Positions 1-13,949 of a DNA stretch of 16,801 nucleotides are shown here, one piece after another; position 1 is the first letter of the stretch, and every line of letters begins with the position of its first letter. The DNA lies in contig PLDP01000207.1 in NCBI GenBank assembly GCA_003136795.1, forward strand, positions 1-16,801. Reading direction: 5' to 3'. A program made the position numbers and the translations under genes. The notes beneath the pieces are model-generated. The model ran no database searches. It saw only the letters and a program-made list of their open reading frames with translations, and was not told the origin of the DNA. This DNA comes from Actinomycetota bacterium. GTDB lineage: Bacteria > Actinomycetota > Thermoleophilia > Gaiellales > Gaiellaceae.

Positions 1-582
1 AACACGAACACGAACACGAACAGCACGTAGTAGCGCCGGAGCAGCACGCTGTCGACGTGGAAGAAGTCGGTTGCGAGAATCCCCTTGGCTTGGGCGGCGA
101 GGAACTCGGTCCACGTCGTGGAGCCGGTGGCAGACGGTACCGGCACAGGATAGTGGCAACGCTCGTCTTCGACACGGTGACGCCGAGCTTTGCGAGCGCA
201 CCGACGATTCGGAGATAACCCCACCGGGGGTCTCGCGAGCCAGGCGGCAGATCAGCTCGACGGTCTCGTCTGGAAGAGCCGGGCGGCCCGGCCGCCGGTG
301 CGGGTAGGTCCACCGCTTCTTCACGAGCGCACGGTGCCACCCGAGGATCGTCAGTGGGGTGACGAGGAACGCCTGCCAGCGTTCCCGCGGGACAAGACCA
401 GCAAGCAAAGCGACGAGTGCTCTGTCGCACCAGGTGAAGCGGGGTGTCCGGGCGACCTGGCGGCGAAGCACGGCCAGCTGGTGGCGCAGGACGAGGATCT
501 CGACCTCGCGGTCGCGCTGATCGCCGGCGGGCGCCAAACGAAAGACGGCGCGCAACACCATATAGAGGAGTGAGAAGAGCAT
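1..582 (-). pseudogene. Integrase-type (DDE, IS3/IS481-like) transposase, N-terminal part, frameshifted and cut by the window edge
   Basis: Read on the minus strand from ATG at 582, the protein starts MLFSLLYMVLRAVF and continues with EILVLRHQLAVLRRQ, RERWQAFLVTPLTIL, KKRWTYPHR and [18 protein letters not shown]. This is the N-terminal signature of a widespread actinobacterial integrase-core transposase. At about 226-232 one base is missing: the expected [19 protein letters not shown] is in the next frame. At about 115-125 the frame changes again, to [20 protein letters not shown], which holds the first catalytic Asp region. The second shift fits a 10-nt deletion between two copies of GACGTGG (inference from family consensus). 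Two mid-domain shifts make it non-functional; IS3-type programmed frameshifting does not occur at these places. The 3' end lies outside the window. Confidence 0.85.
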
Positions 583-690
583 CGCTGCATCCTAGAGAAC
601 CGCTGGTCAGATGGCTAATCGGGTTTTGGTACCCCTCAGGAGAAGAACACGGTCGCGATTCTGCCACGCACGGCCGGTTAGGCGCTAGAA

Positions 691-1704
691 GTGCCCGCGA
701 TACTGGTCCGGAGGGACATGATGGCGAAGCTGCTCGCCGGCGGCTTCTTGCCCGCGGTCTGGCTGCCGGACGAGCAGACGCGGATCCTGCGCCGTCGGAT
801 CTCCGCCAGGGCGCAGCTGGTCCGGCAGCGCACACGCGCGAAGAACCAGGTGCACGCGACGCTGATCCGCAACCTGAAGGGCAAGCCGCCGGTCAGCGAC
901 CTGTTCGGCGTCCGCGGACGCCGCTGGCTCGCCGCGCAGGAGCTGCCGGCCGACGAGCAGGAGACGGTCGCGGCCTGCCTGCGCCAGATCGCCTTCCTCG
1001 ACCGCGAGCTCGCGCTGGTCGAGCGGGCGCTCGCTGAGCAGGTGCTCGCCTCGACCGAGATGCGGCGGCTGCTCACCCTGCCCGGCGTCAACTTCGTCAC
1101 TGCCGCCGCGCTGCTGGCCGCGATCGGCGAGATCGGTCGCTTCCCAAGTGCGCGGCAGCTGGTCAGCTACCTCGGCCTCGACCCACGCGTAACCCAGTCT
1201 GGCTGCGAGCCGGCCCGGCACGGACGGATCAGCAAGCAGGGCCCCGGCGAGACGCGACACGTGCTCGTCGAGGCCGCCTGGCACGCCGCCCGCGCACCCG
1301 GACCCCTACGCGCCTTCCACCAACGGGTCGCCGCCCGCCGCGGCGGCAACATCGCCACTGTCGCGGTCGCACGCAAGCTGGCCGTGATCGCCTGGCACAT
1401 GCTCAGCCGCGGCAAGGACTACGCGTTCGCCCGCCCCTCACTCACCCGCGAGAAGCTGCGCCGGCTCGAACTGATAACCGGCGCCGAACGCCAGAAACGA
1501 AAACGGATCGGCGTCTTCGCGACCAAAGAGCAGCACGACCTCGACAAGCAGCTCGCCGCGCAAGCCGAGCTGGCCTACCTCCGACTCGCCCAAGACTGGC
1601 AACCCGCGACCAAGGGCACGGGTGCCGCACCGGGGCGCGCATCACGTCGGCCATCAAGCGGCCAAGCAGCGCGGCAGGAGACAGCCCCACCCCCTGCGCT
1701 TTAG
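691..1704 (+). pseudogene. IS110-family transposase, 5'-truncated
   Basis: The 337-codon ORF (GTG start, preceded by an in-frame TAG at 679) matches the C-terminal three quarters of IS110-family DEDD transposases. It has VWLPDEQTRILRRR and RTRAKNQVHATLIRNLKGK, from the end of the N-terminal DEDD domain. It then has the transposase_20 domain: LLTLPGVNFVTAAALLAAIG, RQLVSYLGLDPRVTQSG, HGRISKQG, LVEAAWHAARAPGP and ARKLAVIAWHMLSRG. Family members are usually about 400 residues. The first part with the conserved Asp and Glu of the RuvC-like fold is absent, and the sequence just upstream (590-690) does not encode it in any frame. Recognisable homology starts near 712. IS110 elements usually lack long terminal inverted repeats, so the ends are not definable here. 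The element is probably inactive. Confidence 0.85.
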
Positions 1705-1755
1705 CTCGCGATCACCCGCACCAAATCGAACTCTCGCAAAGGAGCCGCCAACCGT

Positions 1756-2055
1756 CCAGCAACTTGACTTCCATCCGTAGTGGCGGACGTAGACGCGGAG
1801 GACGCGTTCGAGGTGGCGGCGGTTGACGATCAGGAGCCAGTCGAGGCACTCGCGGCGGACGGTGCCGATCCGCCGATCGATGAAGGCGTTCGCGCGGGGT
1901 GCCCGTACCGGTGTGCGGATCGTCCGGATGGCGTCGGAGCGGAACACCTCATCGAAGGCCGCCGTGAACTTGCTGTCGCGGTCGCGGATCAAGAACCGGA
2001 TCGGCTCCGACCGGTCGACGAACGTCTCGATGATGTTCCGTGCCTGCCGGCCAGC
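1756..2055 (-). pseudogene. Integrase-type transposase, C-terminal fragment (second copy)
   Basis: Read leftwards on the minus strand this encodes QARNIIETF, then RFLIRDRDSKFTAAFDEVF, RTIRTPVRAPRANAF, IGTVRRECLDWLLIV and RRHLERVLRVYVRHYG. This is the C-terminal half of an rve/DDE transposase, including the second catalytic Asp (RDRDSKF) and the final Glu (RRECLDW). Homology stops at HYG (expected HYNGHRPHRGL). The frame then runs through unrelated sequence to a stop at 1654, overlapping the 3' end of the IS110 ORF on the other strand. The N-terminal half is missing; homology starts only at about 2055. Its sequence differs clearly from the plus-strand fragment at 2058-2306, so the two come from different elements. 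Confidence 0.8.
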
Positions 2056-2057
2056 GC

Positions 2058-2306
2058 CCGGGACTCTCCTGGCGTGCTTTCCTACGAGGGCAAGCCGCGA
2101 GCCTGCTCGCGGTCGACTTCTTCACCGTCGCGACGATCGTGCTGCAGCGGCTCTTTTGTGCTGTTCTTCATCGAGCTCGACAGCCGGCGCGTACATTTTG
2201 TCGGCTGCACCGCGAACCCGACCGGCGTCTGGGTCACCCAGCAAGCTCGCCAATTCGCCTGGACGCTCTAGCAGCAGCCATCGCCGTTTCGATTCCTCAT
2301 CCGCGG
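2058..2306 (+). pseudogene. Integrase-type transposase, middle fragment (third copy), frameshift and stop
   Basis: The plus strand encodes RPGLSWRAFLRGQAASLLAV, then DFFTVATIVLQRLF. After one extra T in the TTTT run at about 2153-2156 the frame becomes VLFFIELDSRRVHFVG, CTANPTGVWVTQQARQFAWTL, then a TAG stop (2269-2271), then FRFLIRG before homology ends. The pieces match the middle of the same transposase family as the two minus-strand fragments, in the opposite direction. The overlap in content with the 1756-2055 fragment (QARN...FLIR versus QARQ...FLIR), with different sequence, shows separate origins. It is a dead remnant. Confidence 0.8.
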
Positions 2307-2311
2307 TTGAT

Positions 2312-2944
2312 CTACTGCACGTCCCGCGGAAGGCTGAGATGTTCAACCGCGGCTCGCAATTCGCACCGGTCGTCGCTGCAGTCGTCGTACAGGATAAGGG
2401 CGTGCTGGAGGTGATGAAGAGCGTCCATAAGACGCTCCTCTGCAGTTCCGGCTCCACGACGCCAGGGTCCGTCGTTAGGTGCGAGTCGCTTCTCGCGCAT
2501 CGCCCACTCGAACTGCTCATCAAGCCACCGTTCCGCAAGATCGATGAATCGCTCGTTCTCGTTCTCGTCCTCAGACCTAGTGGTGCTCATGCTCGGCGTT
2601 CGCGCACGCCTGCGCGTCCGGCCTAGTCCCATCAGGAATTCCAGTTCCGTGCGGCTTATCGTTCCTGCCTCTTCGAGCCCGATTAGATACGCGACGAGGC
2701 GCTCGTTCTCATCGAGCATGAGTTGCAGGTAGCCGACGAGTGCCGCCGCGTCCGTCGCCAGCCGCTCGACTGCGTTCGTCGTTTCGGCACCGCCAGAGAC
2801 TCGCTCACCGCACTGCCGTTCCTCGCGCAGGCGCTTGAGCAGGTCGAAGACGCGGTCGCGGATCTCGACAAAGTGAACGACGATCGCCCGCTTGCCCCGC
2901 ATCGCTTCCTTCAGCTCTTCCAACGTCAACCTCTCGTCACTCAT
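2312..2944 (-). CDS. Hypothetical protein, charged and helical, 210 aa
   Basis: I do not recognise this family. The protein is rich in Glu, Arg and Leu with long predicted helices: LTLEELKEAMRG, RDRVFDLLKRLREER, AAALVGYLQLMLDENERLV, RFIDLAERWLDEQFEWAMREK and RLMDALHHLQHALILY. It also has a low-complexity SEDENENER linker near residue 125. There is no signal peptide, membrane segment or obvious catalytic motif. Codons are coding-like for a GC-rich genome. The ATG overlaps the TGA of the upstream 78-codon gene as TGATG, so translational coupling is likely, and the start has no strong ribosome-binding site of its own. The stop lies about 5 bases from the end of the plus-strand transposase remnant, so the 3' end of the gene could have been altered by IS activity. 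Confidence 0.6.
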   Translation of the reverse strand: MSDERLTLEELKEAMRGKRAIVVHFVEIRDRVFDLLKRLREERQCGERVSGGAETTNAVERLATDAAALVGYLQLMLDENERLVAYLIGLEEAGTISRTELEFLMGLGRTRRRARTPSMSTTRSEDENENERFIDLAERWLDEQFEWAMREKRLAPNDGPWRRGAGTAEERLMDALHHLQHALILYDDCSDDRCELRAAVEHLSLPRDVQ

Positions 2945-3180
2945 CAGATCAGCAGTGCCCTGTGTCGCGGCCTCATCTGACTAGCGATTGCATGCTCCGC
3001 TCTCGTCGTTTTTCGAACTGCCAACCGCTCCGCGAAGAGAAACCCCGCTGACTCACCTACGAGCAGCCGCTTCGCCGCAACAAGTGACAGTTCCCCGGTC
3101 ATCCCCGCACTGGTTCGCGACAGCGTCACGATCGCGACACCGGCGCGTGCGTCATCGAGCCGTAACTCAAGACGAGCCAC
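2944..3180 (-). CDS. Hypothetical protein, 78 aa, coupled to the 210-aa gene
   Basis: A GTG start at 3180 follows a strong GAGGAGG ribosome-binding site about 4 nt upstream, which is the main reason to call this ORF. The product is basic and compact, with alternating hydrophobic stretches (GVAIVTLSRTSAGMTGELSL, SAGFLFAERLAV) and an Arg-rich C-terminus. I recognise no family. Its TGA overlaps the next ATG (TGATG), so it and the 210-aa gene are probably made from one transcript and may act together. No function can be assigned. Confidence 0.55.
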   Translation of the reverse strand: MARLELRLDDARAGVAIVTLSRTSAGMTGELSLVAAKRLLVGESAGFLFAERLAVRKTTRAEHAIASQMRPRHRALLI

Positions 3181-3322
3181 CGCGCCTCCTCGTCGGCTTC
3201 AGGTTGATGCTGATATGGACCATCAGCCAGTCGGCGAGCGCCCAACCAGGCGCGTTCAAGTAGGAAAGGAGGATCGGGCCGCCCACCACCCGAACCGCGA
3301 GGAGCAAGAAGAACGGCAGCGA
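3167..3322 (-). CDS. Possible small hydrophobic protein or gene remnant upstream of the coupled pair
   Basis: On the minus strand, after a TGA at 3323-3325, a frame with very high G/C at third codon positions reads FFLLLAVRVVGGPILLSYL, then NAPGWALADWLMVHISINL, then a basic tail KPTRRRGGSS and a stop at 3167. The codon bias and the one or two hydrophobic stretches look like a genuine membrane peptide. No good ATG exists: TTG near 3307 or a GTG near 3290 would have to start it, so a truncated remnant is equally possible. It overlaps the 78-aa gene start by 14 nt. An overlapping 66-codon frame with an ATG at 3326 has poorer codon bias. Confidence 0.3.
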   Translation of the reverse strand, partial: SLPFFLLLAVRVVGGPILLSYLNAPGWALADWLMVHISINLKPTRRRGGSS

Positions 3323-3561
3323 TCATGCGACCTAACGTTCTAGCGCAGTACGCATCCTGTACCTAGAGGCCTGACTGTGTTCCCCGACAGCGCGACAAGG
3401 CTGAGCATCATGAGATCGCGCGACCGCTGCGAAGCCATCTGGCGCGCATGGACCTGTCCGGTCGGCGGCGACGTTCTTTCCCGGCGCGCCGCGGCTCAGA
3501 TCGACTGTGAGTTTCGTCGAATGCCCTTGGACCGACGCGCTTCGTACGCTACGGTCCGGCC
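3323..3561. other. Gene-free spacer before the HTH-like gene
   Basis: I see no convincing coding sequence on either strand. The 174-codon minus-strand frame across this stretch is low-complexity Arg/Ala/Ser-rich and is the antisense of the gene at 3562. The only recognisable signal is the promoter-like sequence just before 3562. Confidence 0.5.
3527..3555 (+). promoter_or_regulatory. Candidate sigma-70-type promoter for a leaderless transcript
   Basis: TTGGAC (3527-3532), a 17-bp spacer and TACGGT (3550-3555) precede the GTG at 3562 by six bases. Transcription would then start at or beside the start codon. No Shine-Dalgarno sequence is present before that GTG, which fits leaderless initiation. 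Neither hexamer is a strong match. Confidence 0.4.
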
Positions 3562-3804
3562 GTGAGCGAAGGGGAGCGTACGCGCGTTCAGCCGCGAGCG
3601 CCCGAGCTGCTGCGGACGCCGGGCGCTCTCCTAACGCGTACGCACCTCCGGGAGCTTGGCCTTGAGCGCCGCGCCGTTGACGCCGTCTTCCGGACGCTTC
3701 CGATCGTCGTCCTGCCTGGCTACTCACGGCCGATGGTGCGCGCCGAGGACTACTTGGCGCTGGTGAAGCGCTCGACCTATCACGACGACCGCGTGCGCCC
3801 GTAG
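3562..3804 (+). CDS. Small HTH/excisionase-like DNA-binding protein, 80 aa
   Basis: The protein has a short polar N-terminus followed by LLTRTHLRELGLERRAVDAV, PIVVLPGYSRPMVRAEDYLAL and KRSTYHDDRVRP. The first segment reads as a helix-turn-helix (TRTHLRELGLERRAVDAVFR). The PGYSRPMVRAEDYLAL part resembles the wing and recognition region of MerR/excisionase-type (HTH_17) proteins. From memory, small proteins of this layout are common in GC-rich Actinobacteria; I assign the fold, not a target. The GTG start has no ribosome-binding site but a TACGGT box six bases upstream. The stop is nine bases before the next gene, so the two are probably cotranscribed. It could be the regulator of the downstream kinase locus or an island-borne excision factor. 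Confidence 0.55.
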   Translation: MSEGERTRVQPRAPELLRTPGALLTRTHLRELGLERRAVDAVFRTLPIVVLPGYSRPMVRAEDYLALVKRSTYHDDRVRP

Positions 3805-3813
3805 GTTGATCTC

Positions 3814-4359
3814 GTGCGTACCGCAACCGAGCTTCTGTCTGCCGAGCCACCGGCACCCCTTGCCGCCACGCTCAGCGTGCGGCCGATTCGTGCCTGCGTT
3901 CTGGTGCCGTCCGTCGACGGTGTTCCCTGGCAGTGGATCGTCGAGCATGCGATCGCAACCCAATGTCGGGTTTGGGGCGGCCAAGGGAATCTGATCGTGC
4001 CGACCGGCTGGGAAATCCGCGAGGACGAGCTGTTCCTCCGACTCCTCCGTTGCTTCAACCCAGATTTGCTCGCGGTGCATGCACCCACGCATTCCGACGT
4101 GGAGGAGATCGCCCCCGACGCCTACGCCGCAACGATCGCCGACGCAGACCGCCAGTTGAGCGATCTCGGTTTCGGCGAGCAGGCCCGGGCAGATGAGCTG
4201 CAGCGTCTGCGAGGCGAGGTGGCGTGGGGTCTTGAACCCACCGCCGAGCTTCACGCGAAGCTGATCGAGACAGTGGCCCCGCTTCGCCACGACGATGAGG
4301 TTCGATCGACCTTCCTCAACGGCAGCGCACCGCCCACCTTCGGACACGCCTGCCGATAA
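3814..4359 (+). CDS. Unrecognised 181-aa protein, possibly the N-terminal part of a larger family
   Basis: The protein opens with RPIRACVLVPSVDGVPWQWI, then IATQCRVWGGQGNLIVPT, and DELFLRLLRCFNPDLLAVH. A strand-helix-strand pattern with a WGGQGN turn suggests an alpha/beta nucleotide- or ligand-binding fold. The rest (IAPDAYAATIADADRQ to LIETVAPLRHDDEV) is helical. From memory, similar N-termini (VWGGxxNLI...PD) occur in long proteins of actinobacterial genomic islands, so this copy, which stops soon after APPTFGHACR, may be a shortened version. That is inference. The GTG start has TAGGTT six bases upstream and no ribosome-binding site. It lies between the HTH-like gene (9-nt gap) and the kinase gene (112-nt gap), all in one direction. 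Confidence 0.55.
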   Translation: MRTATELLSAEPPAPLAATLSVRPIRACVLVPSVDGVPWQWIVEHAIATQCRVWGGQGNLIVPTGWEIREDELFLRLLRCFNPDLLAVHAPTHSDVEEIAPDAYAATIADADRQLSDLGFGEQARADELQRLRGEVAWGLEPTAELHAKLIETVAPLRHDDEVRSTFLNGSAPPTFGHACR

Positions 4360-4371
4360 AGCAGGCAGGCG
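4347..4371 (+). terminator. 8-bp hairpin spanning the stop codon of the 181-aa gene
   Basis: CGCCTGCC (4347-4354) and GGCAGGCG (4364-4371) form a perfect 8-bp GC-rich stem with a 9-nt loop that contains the TAA stop. No T-tract follows, so if it ends transcription it does so weakly or in a Rho-assisted way. It might separate or attenuate expression of the kinase gene downstream. Confidence 0.35.
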
Positions 4372-4471
4372 GGAACATGCATGCGCCGCCATGTCCCGCT
4401 CAGGGTGAACGGGATCGAATAGCCCCTTGCATCTGTTCTGGGCTAGGTGTCGGTGTAGCCTCCGGATCGAA

Positions 4472-6553
4472 ATGCCGCGTGAGCCTCAATTTCAGACTGG
4501 CCAGAGAATCGCCGACGGCTATCGCCTCCTTAGGTATCTCGGCGGGGGTCAGGATGGCGAGGTGTGGCAGGTCGAGCAGATCTCCCTGGGCATGATCCGG
4601 GCCGCCAAGCTGCTGAACACCCTCGACGGCGATCGACGGGAGCGTTTCGACCGCGAGATCCGGATCTTGGCCAAGCTTGGGAGCCCGTACATCGTCACGA
4701 TCGTCGACCGTGGGACGACATGGAACGCAACGACGAGCACCGAGGTGCCCTTCTATGTCATGGAGTACATCGAGGACTCAGCTCCGCTTGACGAAGCATT
4801 GGCTGCCGTCCCTCGCGAACGATTATTCAAGACGCTGACGAGCTTCTTTTCGCAGACAGCCCGTGCGCTCGCATTTGCCCATCAACACGGCATCGCCCAT
4901 GGCGACGTGAAAGCAGCGAACGTACTTGTGCTCAAACGCGATAATGTGATCAAGCTCTCCGATTTTGGTTTCGGCGCGCTGCCCGGCGAGATCTCCGATC
5001 TGCGGAGTGAGTATCCAGACTCGTCTTACAGGACGCCGCCGGGTCTTGACGCATACGCGGCAGACATATACAAGCTGGGACGCACGTTCGCCGATCTCGT
5101 CGACGAGAATCAGGCAACGCTGCGTCAGGAAGAGGTGACTGCCGTCTTGGGCGTGATTGAGCGCCTCGTCAATACGCCTTCTACCATCGAGTTGGACGAG
5201 ATTAGCGCGCAGGTTGAATCTCTTGCCGCGCTGGAATCCTTATCCGAGCGGTCAGGAGTTCTAGCGCGTTCAACGGCTCTACCGGAGCTGCAGCTTTCGC
5301 CCGGGGGGATGGTCGTTCGTATCGCGCCCCAGGGCGAAATGGTTCTTTCGGAGAGGGCACAACGCATCGTCGACCATCCGCTGGTACAGCGACTCCGCTA
5401 CATCCGCGAGCGTCCACTTGAGCACCTGGCATTCCCAAGTGCGACATCGACCTATTTTGAGGACGCGATCGCTACCTTCGGTACGACTGTCGAATACCTT
5501 CGCCACTTCGTGCCAAGCGCGACAATGGCGAGCGCTAGCGACGAGTTGCTGTCGCATTTGCTGCTTTTTAGCCTTATCGCACCTGTGGGGGAGTACACGT
5601 TCAGCGAACTCATTTATGAAGTCTTCGATGATGACGAGTACAACCCCGTCGCCCGAGCGAGAAGACTCCTGGAGGGGGATGCCGCGGTTGAACGCGCCTT
5701 TGCCGAAGACTGGGAGACCTCGCCAGCGCGCGTCTTCGAATGGCTCGCGTCCGTCCAAGAGGGAATCGGCTATCTGTTCCTAGCTACCTCTCTCGGCCCG
5801 CGGGCGCTAGCGCGAGTATTTCGTCTGGCGTGGCATACCGGTCAGCCGACGCAGTCCGACGTACCGGGAACGATTAGCGCTCTACAAATCCGCGAAGCGG
5901 AGAACGCCTTCGTCGTGGATGCTTTGAAAGTTCCAGTCCTTGAGAACTACTACCTTGCTCGATCCACGATCCAAGAACGCGTGGAATCCAACATGACGGT
6001 GCGATCGGCACGCGGGATGCTGCGCTCGGCGCTAGAGATGTTCAGAGCACATGACATTCAGCCCCGCCATGCGTTTGAGGCAGACGAACCAGCTTTCTTA
6101 AGGCATTCCGCCGTACTCGCAGATTCGAGTGGTCTAGCTGATGCCGCGGAACTATTTCGCGGGATCGAGCAGCGTAAGCTGCATAGACGAGTCACCGTGA
6201 TCAAGGACTCGGAGTTGGAGGCCTTCCGGGCATTGAGTGTCGACGGTGATGCCCTGGCTGAATTGAACTCCGCCATTCTCGGTATCCTGGCTGCGAGCAC
6301 GGGATCCGCCGATGGTGGTCTCGGGACTCTTGTTTGGGATGTCTCGGGCACGGATGTGTCGTTGCCGCCTGTGGAGGTCGCCACTGTCGATGGCCTTGAG
6401 TCCCTGATGGAGTTCTCGCCTCTTGTGTCATCGGTTGTCGCCCGTCGGGCGGATGCGACTCTCTTTGCACCGGCTAAGCTCGTTCCTCCTCCAGATAGAG
6501 CCGACGAGACCCAAGAGACGATCGCGAAGACGATCCAACAACACATCAGTTAG
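4472..6553 (+). CDS. Ser/Thr protein kinase fused to a degenerate SAMHD1-like HD domain, 693 aa
   Basis: N-terminal kinase domain, about residues 10-230: glycine loop GGGQDGEV (24-31), Lys46 (RAAKLL), helix-C Glu62 (REIRIL), catalytic loop HGDVKAAN (143-150) with Asp145, Lys147 and Asn150, and DFG 164-166. HGD in place of HRD makes it a non-RD kinase, but all catalytic residues are present. From about residue 280 it follows the SAMHD1/dGTPase-like HD pattern: QRIVDHPLVQRLRYIRERPL, LAFPSATSTYFED (family: YPGATHTRFEH), LLFSLIAPVGEYTFSEL (family: LLHDIGHGPFSH), AENAFVVDALKVPVLENYYLAR, then RGMLRSALEMF and KLHRRVTV. The metal-binding His of FEH is Asp331 and the HD pair (about 366-368) is gone, so hydrolysis is unlikely. 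No membrane segment is seen. ATG 4472 fits the kinase fold; a TTG at 4427 would add 15 residues. Codons are less GC-biased than in the right half, suggesting transfer. Confidence 0.8.
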   Translation: MPREPQFQTGQRIADGYRLLRYLGGGQDGEVWQVEQISLGMIRAAKLLNTLDGDRRERFDREIRILAKLGSPYIVTIVDRGTTWNATTSTEVPFYVMEYIEDSAPLDEALAAVPRERLFKTLTSFFSQTARALAFAHQHGIAHGDVKAANVLVLKRDNVIKLSDFGFGALPGEISDLRSEYPDSSYRTPPGLDAYAADIYKLGRTFADLVDENQATLRQEEVTAVLGVIERLVNTPSTIELDEISAQVESLAALESLSERSGVLARSTALPELQLSPGGMVVRIAPQGEMVLSERAQRIVDHPLVQRLRYIRERPLEHLAFPSATSTYFEDAIATFGTTVEYLRHFVPSATMASASDELLSHLLLFSLIAPVGEYTFSELIYEVFDDDEYNPVARARRLLEGDAAVERAFAEDWETSPARVFEWLASVQEGIGYLFLATSLGPRALARVFRLAWHTGQPTQSDVPGTISALQIREAENAFVVDALKVPVLENYYLARSTIQERVESNMTVRSARGMLRSALEMFRAHDIQPRHAFEADEPAFLRHSAVLADSSGLADAAELFRGIEQRKLHRRVTVIKDSELEAFRALSVDGDALAELNSAILGILAASTGSADGGLGTLVWDVSGTDVSLPPVEVATVDGLESLMEFSPLVSSVVARRADATLFAPAKLVPPPDRADETQETIAKTIQQHIS

Positions 6554-6556
6554 TCG

Positions 6557-6573
6557 CGATGCGGCCGCCATCG
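6557..6573. terminator. Weak hairpin between convergent genes
   Basis: CGATG (6557-6561) and CATCG (6569-6573) flank a GC-rich 7-nt loop in the 34-bp gap between the kinase stop and the stop of the convergent nucleotidyltransferase gene. The position suits a bidirectional terminator. The stem is only 5 bp and lacks T-tracts, so support is slight. Confidence 0.2.
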
Positions 6574-6587
6574 GGAGCGACGGCTGC

Positions 6588-7421
6588 TCAGGACGAGTCC
6601 TCGCGTAGATAAGCCTGGTAGAGAGCTAAGTAACCTTTGCGATCTGGCTCATCGTGACACACCTGAGCAAGGGTGGAGACCTCGGTTTGGATCCAGCGTC
6701 GGAGTTCCGCCGCGGTGGGCATGAAAGCCATACGCTCTAGCTCGGCGACTTGGTCTCTCAACAGCGTCTCTTCGGCATGCCGGGTCGGTTCGCGCCAGAG
6801 AGCTGTTCCAAGCGGAAGCTGGCGCATGATTCGCGCCCGACTTTCGACAACGCTTCGGAAACGAAGGCGAGCGTTAACGGTCTCTCTGCGTAGCAGTTGC
6901 TTGGCCACATCACAAAGGGCCATGACGTAGCTCGAAAGATCGTTCTCCGCGTCGGGGAGCGTCGCCTGGGCATTTGAAGCATAAGCCTTAGCGATGCAAC
7001 CGTCAGCGTCCTTAAGGATTCCGGTCGGTGGGAAGAACAGCCGCGGCCAATACACGATCTCACCGCGCCGCTCTTCGGCGAGGAGTGAGAAGTCGAGCCG
7101 TGTCGTTCCAACCGTTAGATAGTGCTTCTCCGTGCCAGCCCAGTAGTGCCAGCCAACTTGTAACCCTCCGGAGCCAAGCCACTGACGAAGATTTGCGCTG
7201 CTCCACCACGGTCCGTGTTGTCTCGACCGCGACCACGCCGTCACGTCGACGAAGAGGAAATAGTCTAGGTCTGAGAAAGGATCAGAAACTGTGTTCGCGA
7301 CTGAACCAACTAGAACCGCGCCGATCACGGAGTCGTCGGAGTTGACCAGCCGCCGAACCGCTTCGGCGATTTGTTCGCGATCAAGAATGTGTGTCATCTT
7401 CCCACTCGGCCAGTAGGCCAT
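6588..7421 (-). CDS. Pol-beta-superfamily nucleotidyltransferase, 277 aa (Lnu(B/F)-like layout)
   Basis: The N-terminal domain has the nucleotidyltransferase signature GSVAN (39-43) followed by DPFSDLDYFLFVD with metal-binding Asp51 and Asp53, and a likely third carboxylate in TRLDFSLL (Asp110). The C-terminal half is helical (SYVMALCDVAKQLLRRE, ARIMRQLPLGTALW). Length and layout resemble lincosamide nucleotidyltransferases of the Lnu(B)/Lnu(F) group and related small-molecule adenylyltransferases, but I cannot name a substrate. The ATG at 7421 has AGGGG about 10 nt upstream; a second ATG at 7397 would remove eight residues. Either start overlaps the 3' end of the HIT gene (41 or 17 nt), so the two are cotranscribed and probably coupled. 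Transfer of a nucleotidyl group to a drug, metabolite or protein is the expected reaction. Confidence 0.75.
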   Translation of the reverse strand: MAYWPSGKMTHILDREQIAEAVRRLVNSDDSVIGAVLVGSVANTVSDPFSDLDYFLFVDVTAWSRSRQHGPWWSSANLRQWLGSGGLQVGWHYWAGTEKHYLTVGTTRLDFSLLAEERRGEIVYWPRLFFPPTGILKDADGCIAKAYASNAQATLPDAENDLSSYVMALCDVAKQLLRRETVNARLRFRSVVESRARIMRQLPLGTALWREPTRHAEETLLRDQVAELERMAFMPTAAELRRWIQTEVSTLAQVCHDEPDRKGYLALYQAYLREDSS

Positions 7422-7863
7422 GAGCGCGGTTCCCCTGCCGGAGCACAGTAACGATCGCGCTCAGCACGTCGGCCGGTTCGGACTCTAGCTCCGGGAAGGT
7501 CAAGAACATCGGCCAGCGATCATCGACCCAGGTTTTGCGACCGAAGGGCACTTCCTGGCTGTATCGGGGAAAGGCGTGCAGATGAAGGAGCGGGTCATGC
7601 TGGCCGGATATCACGTAATTGAACCGGGCGGGATTGAAACAAGCCTTCGCTAGTTGCTCGAAGGCCCTGATGACGATTCTGAGTTCAAGGACATCCCTTT
7701 CTGAGACCTGGGAGAATTCCGTTACCCGATTTTGGTTGAGGATCAGACAGCTACCCAAGGTGCGCTGCGCCGGGCGCACGCTGAGGATCCAGCTCGGAGT
7801 CGATCCCACCGCGAGGAGCGGAAGATCGAAGCGACACCAATCGGTAGCGGATGTTCTGGTCAT
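7381..7863 (-). CDS. HIT-superfamily nucleotide hydrolase/transferase, 160 aa
   Basis: The core LGSCLILNQNRVTEFSQV, helix ERDVLELRIVIRAFEQLAKA, FNYVISGQHDPLLHLHAFPRY is the HIT-family fold. The final segment aligns with the family pattern N-Y...PHLHWHVVPRY. His94, at the nucleophile position, and His96 are present; the first His of the HxHxH triad is Leu92. HIT proteins hydrolyse or transfer nucleotidyl groups (Ap4A, AMP-lysine, aminoacyl-AMP and similar). The start is ATG 7863, with AGGA about 4 nt upstream; the frame is open further upstream to 8070 but that extension is not protein-like. It overlaps the nucleotidyltransferase gene downstream, implying linked roles. Confidence 0.7.
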   Translation of the reverse strand: MTRTSATDWCRFDLPLLAVGSTPSWILSVRPAQRTLGSCLILNQNRVTEFSQVSERDVLELRIVIRAFEQLAKACFNPARFNYVISGQHDPLLHLHAFPRYSQEVPFGRKTWVDDRWPMFLTFPELESEPADVLSAIVTVLRQGNRAHGLLAEWEDDTHS

Positions 7864-8309
7864 CTTTTCCTGCGATCCTTCGACCTTCTGAAAACCGTAT
7901 GTCACGGCGGTGAGGCATGCCTCCTGGCGAGATCCGGTTCGAGGCTTCCCCGAGGAAGCCTGCTCGCTCGGTTTGGGGCGTCTGGTTGAGGCTACGCACT
8001 TCATGCGAAGCGAGGGCGCGTACCTCCTCCTGAGCAGCGCCTGGAGCGCTTCGGCAGCTCTTGTGTGCAACGCCGGGTGGGCGAGTTCCGTTGCCGATGG
8101 CTGCGCACCACCCAGTTGGAGTGGCGGTGTCTGCCCGTGTACGGTTAGGTGTGAAGCGTGCCGCAGTTAATTTCTGTCGGATCCGCGTTCAGCCCCTCCT
8201 GGCCGCAGCTTCACCCCTCGCTCGCAGAGGGTGTGCGAACGCCGTGCGAACAACTGCTGTCCAGAAGCGACCAAATCGGCACTTTTTCGGCCTCATGCGA
8301 ACAGCCTGA
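7864..8309. other. Non-coding or decayed spacer at the edge of the accessory block
   Basis: No frame on either strand looks protein-like. Visible structure is the 8-bp hairpin at 7942-7961, three copies of TGCGAAC (8234-8240, 8245-8251, 8296-8302), and an imperfect inverted repeat pairing GGCACTTTTTCGG (8278-8290) with CCGAAAATGCC (8315-8325), which reaches into the mutY remnant. A tRNA-like GGTTCGAGGC at about 7936-7945 has no matching acceptor or anticodon arms. The promoter of the HIT/nucleotidyltransferase operon should lie here. Confidence 0.45.
7942..7961. repeat. Perfect 8-bp hairpin upstream of the HIT gene
   Basis: AGGCTTCC (7942-7949), a 4-base loop CCGA, and GGAAGCCT (7954-7961) form a perfect inverted repeat about 80 bp upstream of the HIT-gene start. 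It has no T-tract on either side. It could be a structured leader element, an operator or a small DNA hairpin; nothing in the sequence decides between them. Confidence 0.5.
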
Positions 8310-8468
8310 TCAGACCGAAAATGCCCGCATAGCAGGAAGCTCCACGTTCTCAACGCGGTACTGCTGCAGCATCACCTCCGAGACGAGGATCGCGTAAGGG
8401 TCGGTTGTCTCGCGCCACGGAAGCGGTCGCTTGTTGTCCTCGTACCAAACCAAGAGCAGCTGTTGCAC
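8310..8468 (-). pseudogene. mutY: mutY (A/G-specific adenine glycosylase), N-terminal remnant
   Basis: The minus-strand frame starting near GTG 8468 reads [19 protein letters not shown], then [19 protein letters not shown]. This is the start of MutY: WY...LPWR...DPYxIxVSExMLQQ. Homology ends after RVENV, at about 8340, and the frame runs into unrelated residues and a TGA at 8310-8312. About 300 residues are lost, including the catalytic Asp and, where present, the iron-sulphur cluster region. Intact MutY removes adenine opposite 8-oxoguanine. The remnant is divergent from the ABC exporter gene at 8510, only about 40 bp away. The break coincides with the change from GC-rich core to the accessory block, so the block, or a deletion at its edge, probably removed the rest. 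Confidence 0.75.
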
Positions 8469-8509: not shown

Positions 8510-9496
8510 GTGATCGGCGAGCCGGCCATCATTCCGTCTGCGGCAACTGAATCTCCGATCCGGGCCGAGCAGCTGCGGAAGGTCTACGGGAGCCGTCACG
8601 AGACCGTGATCGCGGTGGACGGCCTCGACCTCGAGGTGCGCCGCGGCGAGTTCTTCGGGCTGCTCGGCCCGAACGGCGCCGGCAAGTCGACGACGATCGG
8701 GATGCTGACCACGATCGTCGTGCCGACGGGCGGGCGGGCGCTGATCGCCGGCCTGGACGTGCGACACCACGCGGCAGCCGTAAAGCGGCGCATCGGTGTC
8801 GTCTCGCAGGCGAACACACTCGACCGCTCGCTGACCGTGTGGGAGAACCTCTACTACCACGGCCGTTTCTTCGGCGTGCCGCGGCGGCGGGCGCGCCTGC
8901 GCGCCGACGAGTTGCTCGAGCAGTTCGCGCTCTCCGAACGAGCGCAGTCGATGGTGTTCCAGCTTTCGGGCGGACTCGCGCAGCGGCTGATGATCGCTCG
9001 CGCGCTCGTGCACGAGCCCGAGGTGCTCTTCCTCGACGAGCCGACCTCGGGGATCGACCCACAATCCCGCATCAACCTCTGGCGCATCCTGGGCGACCTG
9101 CACGAAGCTGGGCAGACGACGCTGCTCACGACGCACAACATGGATGAGGCGGACAAGCTCTGCGAACGGATCGCGATCATCGACAATGGCAAGGCGCTCG
9201 CGCTCGGCAGCCCGACCGAGCTGAAGCAGACGCTCGGCGCCGACACCCTGATCACGCTGACGATCGACGGCGAGCCCGCGCCACTCGCGGAACGGGCGGC
9301 CGCGCTCGCAGGTGTGCGCGCCGTCGAGCGGGAAGGACAGCTCGTGCGCGTGTTCGCGACCCGCTCGGAGGGCGTGCTCGCGAAGCTCGTCGAGACTGCG
9401 ACGAGCCTCGGGCTGCACGTGCGCGACGCCGCGAGCCACCCGCCCAGCCTCGAGACCGTCTTCCTCACGCTCACCGGCAGGGAGTACCGCGAATGA
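8510..9496 (+). CDS. ABC transporter ATP-binding protein, DrrA-like, 328 aa
   Basis: Cytoplasmic ATPase of an ABC-2-type exporter. Visible motifs are Walker [10 protein letters not shown] (53-61), Q-loop in [19 protein letters not shown], signature LSGG (152-155), Walker [12 protein letters not shown] with Asp176 and Glu177, and the switch His209 in TTHNMDEAD. The C-terminal ~100 residues after the NBD ([18 protein letters not shown] onward, ending [14 protein letters not shown]) are typical of the daunorubicin-resistance DrrA group. The GTG start at 8510 follows TATCGT by three bases; there is no clear ribosome-binding site, so the exact start is uncertain by a few codons. The stop overlaps the permease ATG by 4 nt (ATGA). 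Substrate is unknown; drug or lipid export is likely. Confidence 0.9.
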
Positions 9497-10293
9497 GCGC
9501 CGAGGTGGGGACGTTCTTCGCGCTGGTGGCGCGCGACCTGCGCGTTCTCCGGCGCCAGTTCGGGCAGTTCCTGGTGCGCACGATCATGCAGCCGCTGCTC
9601 TTCGTCTTCGTCTTCGCCTACGTCTTCCCGAAGATCGGCCAGGGCTTCCACGGCGGCTCCACCGGTGTCTCGTTCACGACCGTGCTCGTGCCGGGCCTGA
9701 TCGCCGTCGCGATCAACTTCCAGGGCATCCAGGCCGTCGCGCTGCCGCTGGTGCAGGAGTTCAGCTTCAGCAAGGAGATCGAGGACCGCGTGCTTGCACC
9801 CGTTCCGGTCTGGGTCGTCGGGCTCGAGAAGATCGCCGTCGGCGCCGCCCAGTCGCTGCTTGCGGCCGGCGTCGTCTTTCCGATCGTCTACCTCGTGCAC
9901 GCGCATGGGGCCGCACCGAGCCTCCACATCCACGATCCCCTGCTGTTCGCGATCGCGCTGGTCTTCGCGTGCGTGCTCGCGGCCGCGCTCGGGCTCTTCA
10001 TCGGGACCGTGATCGACCCCCGCAAGATCCCGCTCCTGTTTGCCGTCGTCGTGATCCCGATCACGTTCCTCGGCTGCGTCTACTACCCATGGGCGACCCT
10101 CACGCCGATCCCGTGGCTCAAGGTCCTCGTGCTCCTCAACCCGCTCGTCTACATGACGGAAGGGCTGCGGGCGTCGCTGACGCCGGAGCTGCCGCACATG
10201 CCGGTGTGGGCGTTCATGCTCGCGCTCGTCGGCGGCTCGACCGCGCTCACGATCGTCTCGCTGCGGACGTTCACGCGGCGCGTCGTCACCTGA
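9493..10293 (+). CDS. ABC-2-type permease, DrrB-like, 266 aa
   Basis: Integral membrane partner of the preceding ATPase, translated from an ATGA overlap. Six hydrophobic segments are visible: IMQPLLFVFVFAYVF, the FTTVLVPGLIAVAI segment, the AQSLLAAGVVFPIVYLV segment, LLFAIALVFACVLAAALGLF, LLFAVVVIPITFLGCVYY, and WAFMLALVGGSTALTIVSL near the C-terminus. The length and the LVRTIMQPLLF start match ABC-2 transporters of the DrrB family. Two subunits each of ATPase and permease normally form the exporter. The gene ends 30 bp before the convergent UPF0104-family gene. Confidence 0.88.
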   Translation: MSAEVGTFFALVARDLRVLRRQFGQFLVRTIMQPLLFVFVFAYVFPKIGQGFHGGSTGVSFTTVLVPGLIAVAINFQGIQAVALPLVQEFSFSKEIEDRVLAPVPVWVVGLEKIAVGAAQSLLAAGVVFPIVYLVHAHGAAPSLHIHDPLLFAIALVFACVLAAALGLFIGTVIDPRKIPLLFAVVVIPITFLGCVYYPWATLTPIPWLKVLVLLNPLVYMTEGLRASLTPELPHMPVWAFMLALVGGSTALTIVSLRTFTRRVVT

Positions 10294-10323
10294 GCGACGG
10301 CGAGTGTGCGAGCTCGACGATCG

Positions 10324-11295
10324 TCACGACGACGTTCGCGCGGTGCGCGTCAGCCGCCAGGAGACAATGCCGGCGCCGAAGAGCAGCAGCTCGACGAGCG
10401 TGATCGCGAGCCTGTTCAGCAGCGTCACGCCGAGCGCGGGCCCGGACGTTGTGATCGCCAGCAGCAGCCCGTACATCGACGCTTCGCGCGCGCCGAGGCC
10501 CGACGGAGTGAACACCGCGAGCACGGCGACAATCGCGCCGACCGCCGACACCCCGCCGAGAAACGGGATCGTCGCAAGGCCGACATCGGTGCCGACGCTG
10601 CGCAGCATGAAGTACACAGCCGCACCGGAGATCAGCCAGGTGCCGCAGTAGAAGACGAGCAACACGATGGTCTGCGAGAACGGCAGCGGCTCGATCGTGT
10701 CGGCGCCGAACGGCCGCAGCAACCTTTGCATGAGGGGACGGAAGACGCGCGGGTGCAGGCCGAGCGCACAGAGCAGCCCGAACCCGACGAGCGGAAGCAG
10801 CGGCGCGTTCACGCCCCGCACCCACGCGAGGCTGACGACGAACACGATCACGCCGGAGATCGCCGACAGCCCGGCCTCAACGAGGATCGACGCGAGCACG
10901 GTTGGCGTGTCGGTGACGCCGGCCGAGCGTCGCAGAGCGAGCGTGCGTGCCGCCGGCGTCCACACGCCACCCGGCAGGTACTTCGCGAGCATCGACACCA
11001 TCTCGGCCTGCAACGCCACGCGGTACGGAATCTGGATGTTCCAGACGAGGAGGATGCGGATCCAGCCGAGGATGAAGACGAGGTAGTAGACGGCGACGGT
11101 TGCGAACCCAAGCGCGAGGTAGCCGGGCCGCGCGTTCTCGAGGAGCGGGCCCGCCTTCGACCACTGGTCCTGCACCGCCCAGACGCAGACCGCGACCGTT
11201 GCGGTGACGAGCGCCAGCTGCAGCGACTTGGCCACGCGCGGATGCGCGCGCAGATAGACGACCGCCTTGCGGGCGCCGCTCAGGATTTCCGCCAT
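10324..11295 (-). CDS. UPF0104 / lysylphosphatidylglycerol synthase TM-region family membrane protein, 323 aa
   Basis: Polytopic membrane protein with family marks AKYLPGGVWTPAAR (around residues 105-118) and AVFTPSGLGAREASMYGLLL near residue 265. Seven or eight hydrophobic segments are visible, including LGFATVAVYYLVFILGWIRI, AISGVIVFVVSLAWV, VLLVFYCGTWLISGAAVYF and ITLVELLLFGAGIVSW. The LPG_synthase_TM/UPF0104 family includes the flippase part of MprF and stand-alone proteins next to glycosyltransferases; the transported lipid is not known here. No synthase domain is fused. The gene is convergent with the ABC permease. The start is ATG 11295, without a strong ribosome-binding site. Confidence 0.85.
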   Translation of the reverse strand: MAEILSGARKAVVYLRAHPRVAKSLQLALVTATVAVCVWAVQDQWSKAGPLLENARPGYLALGFATVAVYYLVFILGWIRILLVWNIQIPYRVALQAEMVSMLAKYLPGGVWTPAARTLALRRSAGVTDTPTVLASILVEAGLSAISGVIVFVVSLAWVRGVNAPLLPLVGFGLLCALGLHPRVFRPLMQRLLRPFGADTIEPLPFSQTIVLLVFYCGTWLISGAAVYFMLRSVGTDVGLATIPFLGGVSAVGAIVAVLAVFTPSGLGAREASMYGLLLAITTSGPALGVTLLNRLAITLVELLLFGAGIVSWRLTRTARTSS

Positions 11296-11325
11296 GACGA
11301 CGGAGTTTGCCGGTCGGGAGGGTCC

Positions 11326-11484
11326 TCAGGTGGAGAGGCGGATGCCGACCCAGACGCCCGCGATCCCGCCGACCGCGCTGAAGAGCAGCGAGATGGCCGA
11401 GAAGCTCGAACTGCCCCAGAGCTCCGGAAGGTAGCCGCCGGCGAACGTGCCGAAGGTGGCGCAGATGCCGATGACCGAGCGCAT
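11326..11484 (-). CDS. Small glycine-rich membrane protein, 52 aa
   Basis: The ATG at 11484 follows AAGG at a good spacing (AAGGCGACC-ATG). Two short hydrophobic segments, VIGICATFGTFAGGYL and AISLLFSAVGGIAGVWVGI, separated by PELWGSSSF, form a helical hairpin with small-residue packing motifs. Short proteins of this layout are widespread in Actinobacteria and other phyla but have no known function. A longer frame up to 11550 would add a non-hydrophobic, poorly supported N-terminus and overlap the MFS gene. The gene is divergent from the MFS transporter, with 45 bp between the two starts. Confidence 0.7.
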   Translation of the reverse strand: MRSVIGICATFGTFAGGYLPELWGSSSFSAISLLFSAVGGIAGVWVGIRLST

Positions 11485-11516
11485 GGTCGCCTTATCGGCA
11501 CGTGAGGGCCCCTGGC

Positions 11517-11522
11517 TAAAGT
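11517..11522 (+). promoter_or_regulatory. Candidate -10 box for a leaderless MFS transcript
   Basis: TAAAGT ends seven bases before the ATG at 11530, placing transcription initiation at the start codon. There is no ribosome-binding site upstream; the purine-rich GGGGGAGG is inside the coding sequence. No good -35 element is seen. Confidence 0.35.
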
Positions 11523-11529
11523 CCCCGAG

Positions 11530-12936
11530 ATGGGGGAGGCTCGGCAGCACTACAACGTCACGCTCGCGATTCTCGCGCTCGCCGGCCTCGCCTACGCGCT
11601 CCAGCAGACGATGATCGTGCCCGCGCTACCGAGCCTGCAGCGCGATTTTCACACCTCGACCGCCTGGGTCACCTGGCTCCTGACGTCGTTTCTGCTCGTC
11701 TCCGCGGTGGCGACGCCGGTGCTCGGGAAGCTCGGCGACCAGTACGGCAAGGAACGCTTCCTGCTGCTCAGCCTGCTCGTCTTCTTCGTCGGCTGCGTCG
11801 CGGCGATCTTCGCCTGGAACATCTGGTCGCTGATCGCCTTCCGCGCGATTCAAGGTTTCGGCGGCGCCGTGTTCCCGCTCTCGTTCGCGATCGTCTTCGA
11901 CGAGTTCCCGTCGGAGAAGGTGGGCTCGGGCGTCGGCATGGTCTCCGCGATCCTGGGGGTCGGCGGCGGGCTCGGGCTCGTCCTCTCCGGCGTGCTCGTC
12001 GACTACGCCTCGTGGCGCTGGCTCTTCATCGTCGGGGCGGTGTTCGTCGGCGTGGCGGCGATCGGCGTGTGGCGCTTCGTGCCCGAGTCGCCGGTCAAGA
12101 CGCCGTCGAAGCCCGACCCTGTCGGTGCGGCGCTGCTCTCGGGCGTGCTCGTGACGCTGCTGCTCGCCCTCACGGAGGGGCCGGTCTGGGGCTGGGGCTC
12201 GAGCCGCGTCGCGGGGCTCTTCGTTGCGAGCGGGGTGTTCGCATTCACCTGGGTGCGCGTCGAGCTGCGGGTCCCGGAGCCGATGGTCGACATCCGGATG
12301 ATGCTGCAGCGCACCGTGCTGTTCACCAACCTGGCGGCGATCTTCACGGGCTTCGCGATGTTCGGCGCGTTCGTGCTCCTGCCCTCGCTGATGCAGACGC
12401 ACTCGGGCGGTAGTGTCGACTACGGCTTCGGCCTCTCGGCGACGGCGACGGGGGTCTACCTGCTGCCCGGCGGCGTGCTCGGGTTCGTCGCGGGACCGGC
12501 GGCCGGGCGGCTCGGCACACGGTACGGCTCGCGGCTGCCGCTGGTGCTCGGGCTCGTCCTGACCTCGCTCGGGGTCGCGTCGCTCGCCGTCCTGCACGCC
12601 CACCCGCTCGAGATCTCCCTCGGCATGGTGGGCATCGGGATCGGCGTTCCGTTCGCGTTCGCGGCGATGGCGAAGCTGATCATCGACGCGGTCCGGCCGT
12701 CCGAGACCGGCGTGGCAACCGGCATGAACACGGTGATGCGCACGATCGGGTCGGTGATCGGCGGCCAGGTCGGCGCGGCGATCGTCAGCGCCGACACGAT
12801 CGGCGGCTCGAAGATCCCCGCCGAGTCGGCGTTCGTCGCCGCGTTCTGGGTGAGCGCAGCCGTCGCGCTGGTCGGCGCGGTGCTGGCGCGGTTCATCCCG
12901 CGCAAGGGCGCGGCACGCGTCGCGTTTGCGGACTAA
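11530..12936 (+). CDS. MFS transporter, DHA2 (14-TM drug:H+ antiporter) type, 468 aa
   Basis: Major facilitator protein in the inner membrane. Motif A is GKLGDQYGKERFLL between TM2 and TM3, and motif C-like GVGGGLGLVLSGVLVDYASW follows TM5. The start YALQQTMIVPALPSLQRDF with AWVTWLLTSFLL is typical of EmrB/QacA-type drug exporters of the DHA2 family, which normally have 14 membrane segments and about 450-500 residues. Proton-driven export of a drug or metabolite is the likely role; the substrate is unknown. The gene is divergent from the 52-aa membrane protein. It ends 9 bases before gltX but is probably a separate unit, because gltX has its own promoter-like box. Confidence 0.88.
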   Translation: MGEARQHYNVTLAILALAGLAYALQQTMIVPALPSLQRDFHTSTAWVTWLLTSFLLVSAVATPVLGKLGDQYGKERFLLLSLLVFFVGCVAAIFAWNIWSLIAFRAIQGFGGAVFPLSFAIVFDEFPSEKVGSGVGMVSAILGVGGGLGLVLSGVLVDYASWRWLFIVGAVFVGVAAIGVWRFVPESPVKTPSKPDPVGAALLSGVLVTLLLALTEGPVWGWGSSRVAGLFVASGVFAFTWVRVELRVPEPMVDIRMMLQRTVLFTNLAAIFTGFAMFGAFVLLPSLMQTHSGGSVDYGFGLSATATGVYLLPGGVLGFVAGPAAGRLGTRYGSRLPLVLGLVLTSLGVASLAVLHAHPLEISLGMVGIGIGVPFAFAAMAKLIIDAVRPSETGVATGMNTVMRTIGSVIGGQVGAAIVSADTIGGSKIPAESAFVAAFWVSAAVALVGAVLARFIPRKGAARVAFAD

Positions 12937-12945
12937 CGTCGCGTC

Positions 12946-13944
12946 ATGACCCGTGTGCGATTTGCGCCCAGCCCGACCGGGACGCTGCACGTCGGCAACG
13001 CGCTGAGCGCCGTCGCGAACCGTCGCTTCGGCGACTGGATGCTGCTCCGGATCGACGACACCGATGCTGCCCGCAACGTTCCCGGCGGCGAGCAGGCGAT
13101 CCTCGGCGACCTGCGCTGGCTCGGCATCGACTGGGACGAGGGGCCCGTGCGCCAGAGCGACCGCGCCGAGCGGCACCTCGAGGCGGCACGCACGGCTGGG
13201 CTGCCGCAGCGCTTCGAGGGCGTGATGCTGTGGCGAGACGAGGGGCCGCCGACGTTCCACCTCGCGAGCGTGGTCGACGACATCGACTTCGCGATCACGC
13301 ACGTGATCCGTGGTTCCGACCATCGCGCGAACGAGGAGCTGCACGCCGCGTTGCACGAGGCGCTTGGCTCGAAGCCGCCGCACGTGATCCATCACGGCCT
13401 CGTCGTCGGCGACGACGGCAAGAAGCTCTCGAAGCGCGCCGAAGGCGCAACGGTCGCATCGCTGCGCGACGCCGGCTATCCCGCCGAGGGGGTGCGTGCC
13501 TACCTCGACGAGCTCGACCTGCCGAAGCACGACGTCCACCTCGACCTCGACCGCATTCGCTCGCTCTCGGTCGACGTGCTCGGGCAGCTCGACGACGAGG
13601 CGCTCGCCGAGCGGGTGGGCGTGCCGGTCGAGGCGGCCCCGCTCCTGCGCGGCGCGCACGACCTGGTCGAGGCGCGGGCGCTCGCGCGCACCGTGCTCGA
13701 CCCACCAAGTAACACAGTGTTACTAAGTCCCGAGACGCTGGAGCGCTTTGTGGAGCTGCGTTCGCAGCTGCCGGACGTGCTCGAACAGGACGAGGCGAAG
13801 ACGGTCGTGCGCGAGCTGAAGGCCGTCGGAGGGAATCTGCGCGCGCTGCGGGTGGCGCTGACCGGCCAGGAGCGCGGGCCGGAGCTCTGGGCCGTGCTGC
13901 GCGCGCTGCCGCGTGACGAGGCGCTGCGCCGCGCACTACCCTGA
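12946..13944 (+). CDS. gltX: Glutamyl-tRNA synthetase, unusually compact (332 aa)
   Basis: Class I aminoacyl-tRNA synthetase that charges tRNA(Glu). The HIGH-type motif is HVGN (15-18, in RFAPSPTGTLHVGNA), the KMSKS-type motif is KLSKR (160-164), and the ITHVIRGSDHRANEELHAA segment is the diagnostic GluRS active-site stretch. Ordinary GluRS is about 470-490 residues. Here the connective insertion between RAERHLEAARTAG and FHLASVVDDIDFAITHV is cut to some 30 residues, with no Cys zinc site, and the anticodon-binding part is short, ending with the usual RALRVALTG. Unlike GluQ-RS it keeps a helical C-terminal domain. Position before cysS matches the gltX-cysS order of Bacillus (without cysE). 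ATG 12946 has TAACGT six bases upstream and no clear ribosome-binding site. Confidence 0.85.
   Translation: MTRVRFAPSPTGTLHVGNALSAVANRRFGDWMLLRIDDTDAARNVPGGEQAILGDLRWLGIDWDEGPVRQSDRAERHLEAARTAGLPQRFEGVMLWRDEGPPTFHLASVVDDIDFAITHVIRGSDHRANEELHAALHEALGSKPPHVIHHGLVVGDDGKKLSKRAEGATVASLRDAGYPAEGVRAYLDELDLPKHDVHLDLDRIRSLSVDVLGQLDDEALAERVGVPVEAAPLLRGAHDLVEARALARTVLDPPSNTVLLSPETLERFVELRSQLPDVLEQDEAKTVVRELKAVGGNLRALRVALTGQERGPELWAVLRALPRDEALRRALP
13708..13724. repeat. Perfect AT-rich palindrome inside gltX
   Basis: AGTAACAC, a central A and GTGTTACT form a perfect 17-bp inverted repeat in otherwise GC-rich coding DNA. It is read in frame as Ser-Asn-Thr-Val-Leu-Leu (residues 255-260), including TTA and CTA leucine codons that are rare in this neighbourhood. 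It lies in the linker of the C-terminal domain. The form resembles a TetR-type operator half-site pair, but no regulator is nearby. Confidence 0.7.
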
Positions 13945-13949
13945 GCAGG

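Follow-up and report, generated by a model that had tools for sequence, protein, structure and literature searches.

HD proteins of the SAMHD1/dGTPase type have no kinase; by the account in one part of a superfamily review (PMC8177086), they carry the metal ligands H..HD..D, and two proteins of this type, SAMHD1 and EF1143, form homotetramers that bind nucleotides at allosteric sites. The same part of the review describes RelA as without hydrolytic activity, the most probable cause being its divergent HD. RelA is a precedent for an inactive HD that is retained next to a working catalytic domain, an arrangement like that of the protein described here, but its partner domain is a (p)ppGpp synthetase rather than a kinase, and the likeness is one of description. 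In Clover, which consists of the dGTPase CloA and the nucleotidyltransferase (NTase) CloB, a dNTPase-type HD protein is central to a nucleotide-sensing switch, as far as excerpts of the Clover paper tell (PMC12265719). The word 'kinase' is absent from the main text of both papers, and excerpts of another source (PMC3710099) place HD and kinase domains in fusions with HEPN/CBS and AbiJ-type domains, not with each other.

The window analysed in the present study, a stretch of 16,801 nucleotides belonging to a 24,029-base contig of a Gaiellaceae assembly (2.6 Mb, 289 contigs, 81% complete), encodes a protein in which a Hanks-type kinase is joined to an HD half that has lost its metal ligands. It recalls Clover in that an NTase-like gene, a candidate only and in this case convergent, also lies near the fusion gene. 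On the account in those excerpts, however, CloA is catalytically live, whereas the HD half of the window protein is dead, and a live dGTPase with its partner CloB was not found here, the HD ligands being lost. Among the defence kinases of PADLOC, PD-T4-6 and MAD6 show kinase-domain similarity (1.9e-27 and 1.3e-28). The best match covers residues of about 10-168, the HD half is unmatched in the rows listed, and the PD-T4-6 model is matched over positions 4-156 of 292 instead of as a whole; these matches are generic and cover about the kinase domain only.

Organization of the fusion gene and its relatives

The gene (Table 1) starts at the ATG at position 4472, and the three full-length relatives returned by the protein search, P0002 (45% identity), P0003 (34%) and P0004 (32%), align from the same methionine. 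The four members measure 693, 693, 694 and 693 aa at 31-46% identity, and, since only these four are known, every statement on conservation rests on four sequences. Of the 129 matches of the protein search, 120 are listed; apart from the three relatives, none of these spans more than 44% of the query, and nearly all fall in the kinase region. The Pfam model HD_assoc_2 (PF19276) scores 35.6, 35.7 and 62.6 bits in P0002-P0004, above its cut-off in all three, and just under it in the window protein; the HD model PF01966 is absent from the Pfam matches of all four members.

Table 1. Features of the fusion gene and its surroundings, numbered from the first nucleotide of the window.
Feature	Position	Strand	Basis
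IS110-family transposase, upstream of accessory block	691..1704	+	PF02371 6.6e-24
Kinase / pseudo-HD fusion gene, 693 aa	4472..6553	+	ORF and translation; three full-length relatives
Hanks-type protein kinase domain, residues 17-237	4520..5182	+	Pfam PF00069 Pkinase 7.7e-23
Linker motif TALPEL, residues 268-273	5273..5290	+	Pro-Glu pair aligned in 4/4 dead-branch proteins
Pseudo-HD domain, about residues 285-518	5324..6025	+	profile matches and residue alignment
HD_assoc_2-like region, residues 476-602	5897..6277	+	Pfam PF19276 1.6e-4, 21.6 bits against a cut-off of 23.1
Nucleotidyltransferase-like gene, convergent with kinase gene, same low-GC block	6588..7421	-	PF04439 2.2e-4, below cut-off; GC3 0.63
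HIT-like hydrolase gene, same low-GC block	7381..8070	-	PF01230 0.015, below cut-off; GC3 0.69

A kinase predicted to be active beside an HD half without metal ligands

Hanks-type kinases are recognised by a VAIK-type Lys, an alpha-C Glu, a catalytic Asp, an Asn and the Asp of DFG. The window protein holds all of them, as K46, E62, D145 (within H143-G144-D145), N150 and D164, and they are invariant across the four members, in agreement with the original prediction, which had named these five residues and called the kinase non-RD from its HGD motif. With these residues in place, this non-RD kinase should be active. Invariant in all four members, too, is the post-DFG stretch of Y181-P182 and S184-S185-Y186-R187.

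Taken singly, the C-terminal sequence gives weak matches to the PDB (2hek, 5e-4; SAMHD1, 0.014). The profile of the four members, in contrast, reaches 2hek at 2.5e-29 over profile positions 24-392, 2q14 at 2e-20 and SAMHD1 at 3e-17, and hhalign pairs the dead HDs with live HDs at a probability of 99.85. Against HDs of the SAMHD1/dGTPase type (PDB 2hek, 2q14, 2o6i and 4bzb, the last being SAMHD1, an antiviral enzyme of humans) the profile match sets in at the HD N-terminus, and in 2hek it runs on through the HD_assoc region. Because of the strength of these profile matches, we rejected chance as the source of the HD similarity; the C-terminal half is, judged by profile comparison, of true HD ancestry, of the SAMHD1/dGTPase type with an HD_assoc_2-like region. 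The original prediction had seen this fold pattern in the second half and proposed a comparison with SAMHD1 profiles, and the profile matches to proteins of the PDB bear the pattern out.

The four metal ligands are nonetheless lost in all four members. In the window protein the His of FEH is D331, exactly as had been predicted; the HD pair is A370-P371, so that its predicted loss holds, while its predicted placement near residues 366-368 does not. In the DxDK motif the first Asp is replaced by G442, the second, before the Lys, by R444, and the Lys itself by A445; the second Asp is presumably the metal ligand in SAMHD1 numbering, and both are lost here either way. E374 and E379 stand at two further His positions of the HD. 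Across the four members the FEH His position reads D, D, S and Q, the HD pair A-P, S-A, N-K and R-H, the first Asp of DxDK G, A, S and A, and the second R, A, P and S. Thus, the ligand positions have been replaced in no common way, and the HD halves of the four proteins share no invariant His. The invariant columns of this half include R295, D301, Q306, L308, W414, E502-R503-V504 and R568. Of the four, only P0004 retains the DPxxG with which SAMHD1-type HDs start, so nucleotide sensing at this site is unsupported for the window protein. The comparison of homologues that the original prediction called for has therefore come out as it anticipated, the kinase residues being kept and the HD ligands lost in four of four members, and, as far as sequences can tell, loss of the HD centre characterises every one of the four known members and is no single-sequence oddity.

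Distribution of the dead branch

The full-length fusion gene is present in one of 103 family genomes, its own. Among the best matches listed from 299 genomes of the class (at most three candidates scored in each), those besides its own are confined to the kinase region, as are the plasmid matches of the dead-branch query and, on named genome contigs, the matches within the top 80 of 154 relatives; no dead-branch fusion was found on viral contigs. A profile search with the HD halves, in which up to 8000 candidates were considered, recovered P0003 together with a stand-alone HD with intact ligands (P0122). Across 396 genomes of the phylum, the HD profile found a match in 41, its own included. 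Thirteen loci were read from the other 40, of which one, in genome G460, is a live fusion and the rest are without a kinase; the other open frames listed (74-603 aa) are too short for a kinase/pseudo-HD fusion.

A kinase model run over 19 HD loci matched only in L035 and L125, both of them fusions, and no separate kinase gene was found beside a stand-alone HD at the 19 loci scanned. As a side observation, the stand-alone HDs from the genomes of one family (f23; loci L028-L034) form a second pseudo-HD group without a kinase, with no kinase-model match at their loci; seven of the eight f23 sequences read lack at least one HD ligand, and L026 is intact.

Live kinase-HD fusions and the reversal of constraint

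The fusion of G460, 847 aa in length, has FEH, HDIGH and DADKLDY intact. With its HD region as a query, the protein search returned 583 proteins, and among the best 120 of them a kinase is included in 112 and the HD ligands are intact in 120, a proportion that exaggerates the prevalence of intact HDs in kinase-HD fusions at large, because the query HD was itself intact and the set is biased towards live HDs. Sources named include Verrucomicrobia, Vicinamibacterales and the archaeon Methanoregula. In the same best 120 of 583, the kinase Lys column holds K in 107 (gap in 12, T in 1) and the catalytic Asp column D in 112 (gap in 8), 106 proteins measure 820-980 aa, and the Pro and the Glu of the linker pair occur in 114 and 118, respectively. 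At the second His of HDxGH, 69 proteins of this set carry Gln, 49 His and 2 Tyr, a variation that may reflect different chemistry. A search of 198 phylum genomes with live fusions (E <= 1e-60) found one, the already known G460; no place covering 80% of the live-fusion query was found on plasmids (E limit 1e-20) or in phage records (E limit 1e-10).

As to their settings, the G460 fusion sits behind an integrase-like ORF, with nearby small ORFs resembling toxin-antitoxin genes, all identified by eye. A contig of the viral collection (L125) encodes a full-length kinase-HD protein with intact HD motifs at 5479-8079 (+), and also carries portal, head maturation protease and integrase/invertase-family genes.

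Like the window protein, the live fusions (e.g., P0123, P0128, P0144 and P0202) have an N-terminal kinase and a C-terminal HD with an HD_assoc_2-type region; unlike it, they keep the HD ligands, and the HD is their more conserved half. The idea of a unique layout was therefore dropped, fusions with an intact HD being numerous in the protein database. The original prediction knew of no characterised protein with this layout, and this part stands for the open-licence library searched, where we found no study of a kinase-HD fusion; the singularity that it implied does not. The kinase-HD layout is broad in the database, and what is new, as judged from these comparisons, is the dead-HD branch, for which we propose a reversed wiring.

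This proposal draws on mean identities over matched regions of the two halves. Among the four dead-branch proteins they amount to 49.1% for the kinase and 29.4% for the HD, with the former higher in 6/6 pairs, whereas among 21 live fusions they are 44.3% and 56.8%, with the kinase higher in 5/210 pairs; the pairs are not independent, the dead branch offers just four members, and the live set was gathered via its HD, so that the live HD identity may be inflated. The reversal of constraint is large despite these sampling limits. Such a pattern fits HD catalysis as the output of the live group and the kinase as the output of the dead branch, and it likewise fits the proposal that the HD half senses a ligand and gates the kinase. 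The constraint on the dead-branch kinase may, however, have nothing to do with the HD half.

One fusion or two

The dead branch could have arisen by decay within the family of live kinase-HD fusions and not through a fusion of its own, a reading that is compatible with the functional readings below and to which we give a somewhat less than even chance. In its favour, full-length dead and live profiles match collinearly (probability 100, E 4e-58, 639 columns), so that the dead branch follows the kinase-HD-HD_assoc order of the live family; the Pro-Glu linker pair is common to both (four of four dead-branch proteins, and Pro in 114 and Glu in 118 of the best 120 of 583 live-set proteins described above); and the HD tree sets dead and live fusions against stand-alone HDs with a support of 90/84. 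The kinases, however, speak against it. On the live-fusion kinase model the dead-branch kinases score 69-75 bits, compared with a mean of 81 (range 67-102) for 16 held-out generic kinases, and on the generic model 107-119 bits against a mean of 229. With low scores on both models, they stand apart from both groups, and live-fusion kinase domains show no special closeness to them.

The HD half also gives reason for doubt. Two intact stand-alone HDs from the same phylum score 167 and 161 bits on the dead-HD profile, above all 120 live-fusion HDs (maximum 135, median 104.5), with nine other stand-alone HDs at 55-117 bits; P0004 keeps a DPLHGD start like that of stand-alone HDs; an AU test does not reject a tree in which the dead HDs group with stand-alone HDs of the same phylum (p 0.337); and the dead HD rows are long branches in the HD tree. 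Because the HD tree (24 live-fusion, 11 stand-alone and 4 dead HDs) and the kinase tree (23 live, 32 generic and 4 dead) each consist of three groups with no outgroup, sister relations are unreadable from them. On balance, we lean weakly towards two separate fusions.

Genomic setting

The kinase-HD, NTase-like and HIT-like genes form a block with a GC of 0.58-0.59 and GC3 of 0.63-0.69, compared with 0.68-0.72 and 0.89-0.95 for the genes at 8510-15239. In a DNA search of 12 genus-mates, a flippase-like segment (window 10324 onward) was matched in seven, and none of the matches listed falls in window 2306-8342. Around the IS110 gene lie IS fragments at 1-835 (-) and 1654-1992 (-), with rve_3 and HTH_21 below cut-off, which we take to be transposase pieces of the IS3/IS481 kind. 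Because of the low-GC block, the absence of a listed genus-mate DNA match, the IS110 gene and IS pieces upstream and the single occurrence among the family genomes, the kinase/pseudo-HD gene looks like an acquired accessory gene.

None of the window neighbours was found with the fusion elsewhere. The NTase-like and HIT-like genes overlap (6588-8070, minus strand) and could be a functional pair of their own, the latter as a putative nucleotide-conjugate hydrolase. Considered as a partner of the kinase, the HIT-like gene was found in only its own genome among 296 of the phylum. Its plasmid relatives are mostly annotated 'HIT family protein', and 2 of 15 were viewed in settings without a kinase-HD annotation, most genes of one setting being unnamed; the NTase-like gene has no plasmid match. 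Upstream of the kinase gene, an ORF of 181 aa at 3814-4359 (+), with the stretch VWGGQGNLIVP and no family match, has a relative in a single further genome out of 199 of the class, where a stop interrupts the frame, and, besides its own, none in a phylum sample of 149 and none on plasmids. It was dropped as a partner, the relative's 16-kb stretch being without a kinase-HD gene among the ORFs listed (by eye).

At the edge of the low-GC block, 8343-8465 (-) holds a shortened mutY-like start (NCBIfam TIGR01084 2.8e-11, model positions 3-46 of 277; no Pfam match); short similar stretches recur in the genus, but in two relatives that carry the ABC genes the surrounding stretches covered did not reveal the piece. 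No RNA family reaches its gathering score in the window, and a sub-threshold glutamine-II riboswitch match at 8183-8232 (+; 17.7 bits against 33, E 0.047) is probably due to chance.

Proposed function and its alternatives

Our favoured reading, to which we attach roughly an even chance, is that the horizontally acquired kinase would be the output, and the decayed dNTPase-type HD with HD_assoc_2 a sensor or assembly platform, perhaps in defence. In this scheme the pseudo-HD would still have the fold of SAMHD1/EF1143-type enzymes, perhaps along with their tendency to form oligomers, and would bind a nucleotide or protein ligand without cutting it. Assembly through the pseudo-HD would then let the kinases phosphorylate each other, S184, S185 and Y186 being candidate sites, and thereafter a target, so that phosphorylation would be the output of the kinase. 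A role in stress or against phages and plasmids, the weakest step of the scheme, is plausible because of the mobile setting, and the settings of the live relatives in G460 and L125 hint at a function in conflicts with mobile elements.

Several other readings of the HD half have to be set against this one. The pseudo-HD may be a partner-binding subunit that joins an active stand-alone HD dNTPase of its own cell in mixed oligomers, or regulates it, and the kinase would phosphorylate that dNTPase. Such a role would suit the homotetramers of SAMHD1 and EF1143, as reported in the part of the review cited above (PMC8177086), and the top scores of the two intact same-phylum stand-alone HDs on the dead-HD profile. 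In its own, 81% complete assembly, however, the HD profile (E <= 1e-5; four of nine candidates scored) matches the fusion itself only, so no stand-alone partner is seen, and we regard this role as improbable. We think equally little of the idea that the HD half is vestigial, or a tail for folding or stability, and the gene an ordinary kinase. Fast evolution of the HD half in the dead branch would agree with it, but length and order are retained in four diverged members, and many columns of the HD half are invariant; the constancy of length (693-694 aa) at such identities argues against a useless tail. That the HD half is still an enzyme, performing a different chemistry with other residues, seems very improbable: new invariant polar residues, e.g., E502-R503, do stand where the live fusions read differ, but the missing invariant His and the lack of any common replacement at the ligand positions weigh against it.

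Returning to the kinase as output and the pseudo-HD as sensor or platform, we further put forward, as a tentative and rather doubtful extension, that effector and regulator have been swapped: in the widespread live fusions the HD would be the output, by depleting nucleotides, and the kinase its regulator, and in the rare dead branch, perhaps an independent fusion, the HD would sense a nucleotide or a protein and the kinase would be the output.

If this swap is true, one two-part layout would encode two opposite wirings. The fusions with live HD and with dead HD are a natural pair that can reveal which half is the switch and which the output. The window protein also draws attention to numerous kinase-HD fusions, from bacteria and one archaeon, on which the open-licence library searched yielded no study. 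SAMHD1-like immunity would have a kinase-gated counterpart in the live members if these deplete nucleotides under the control of their kinase.
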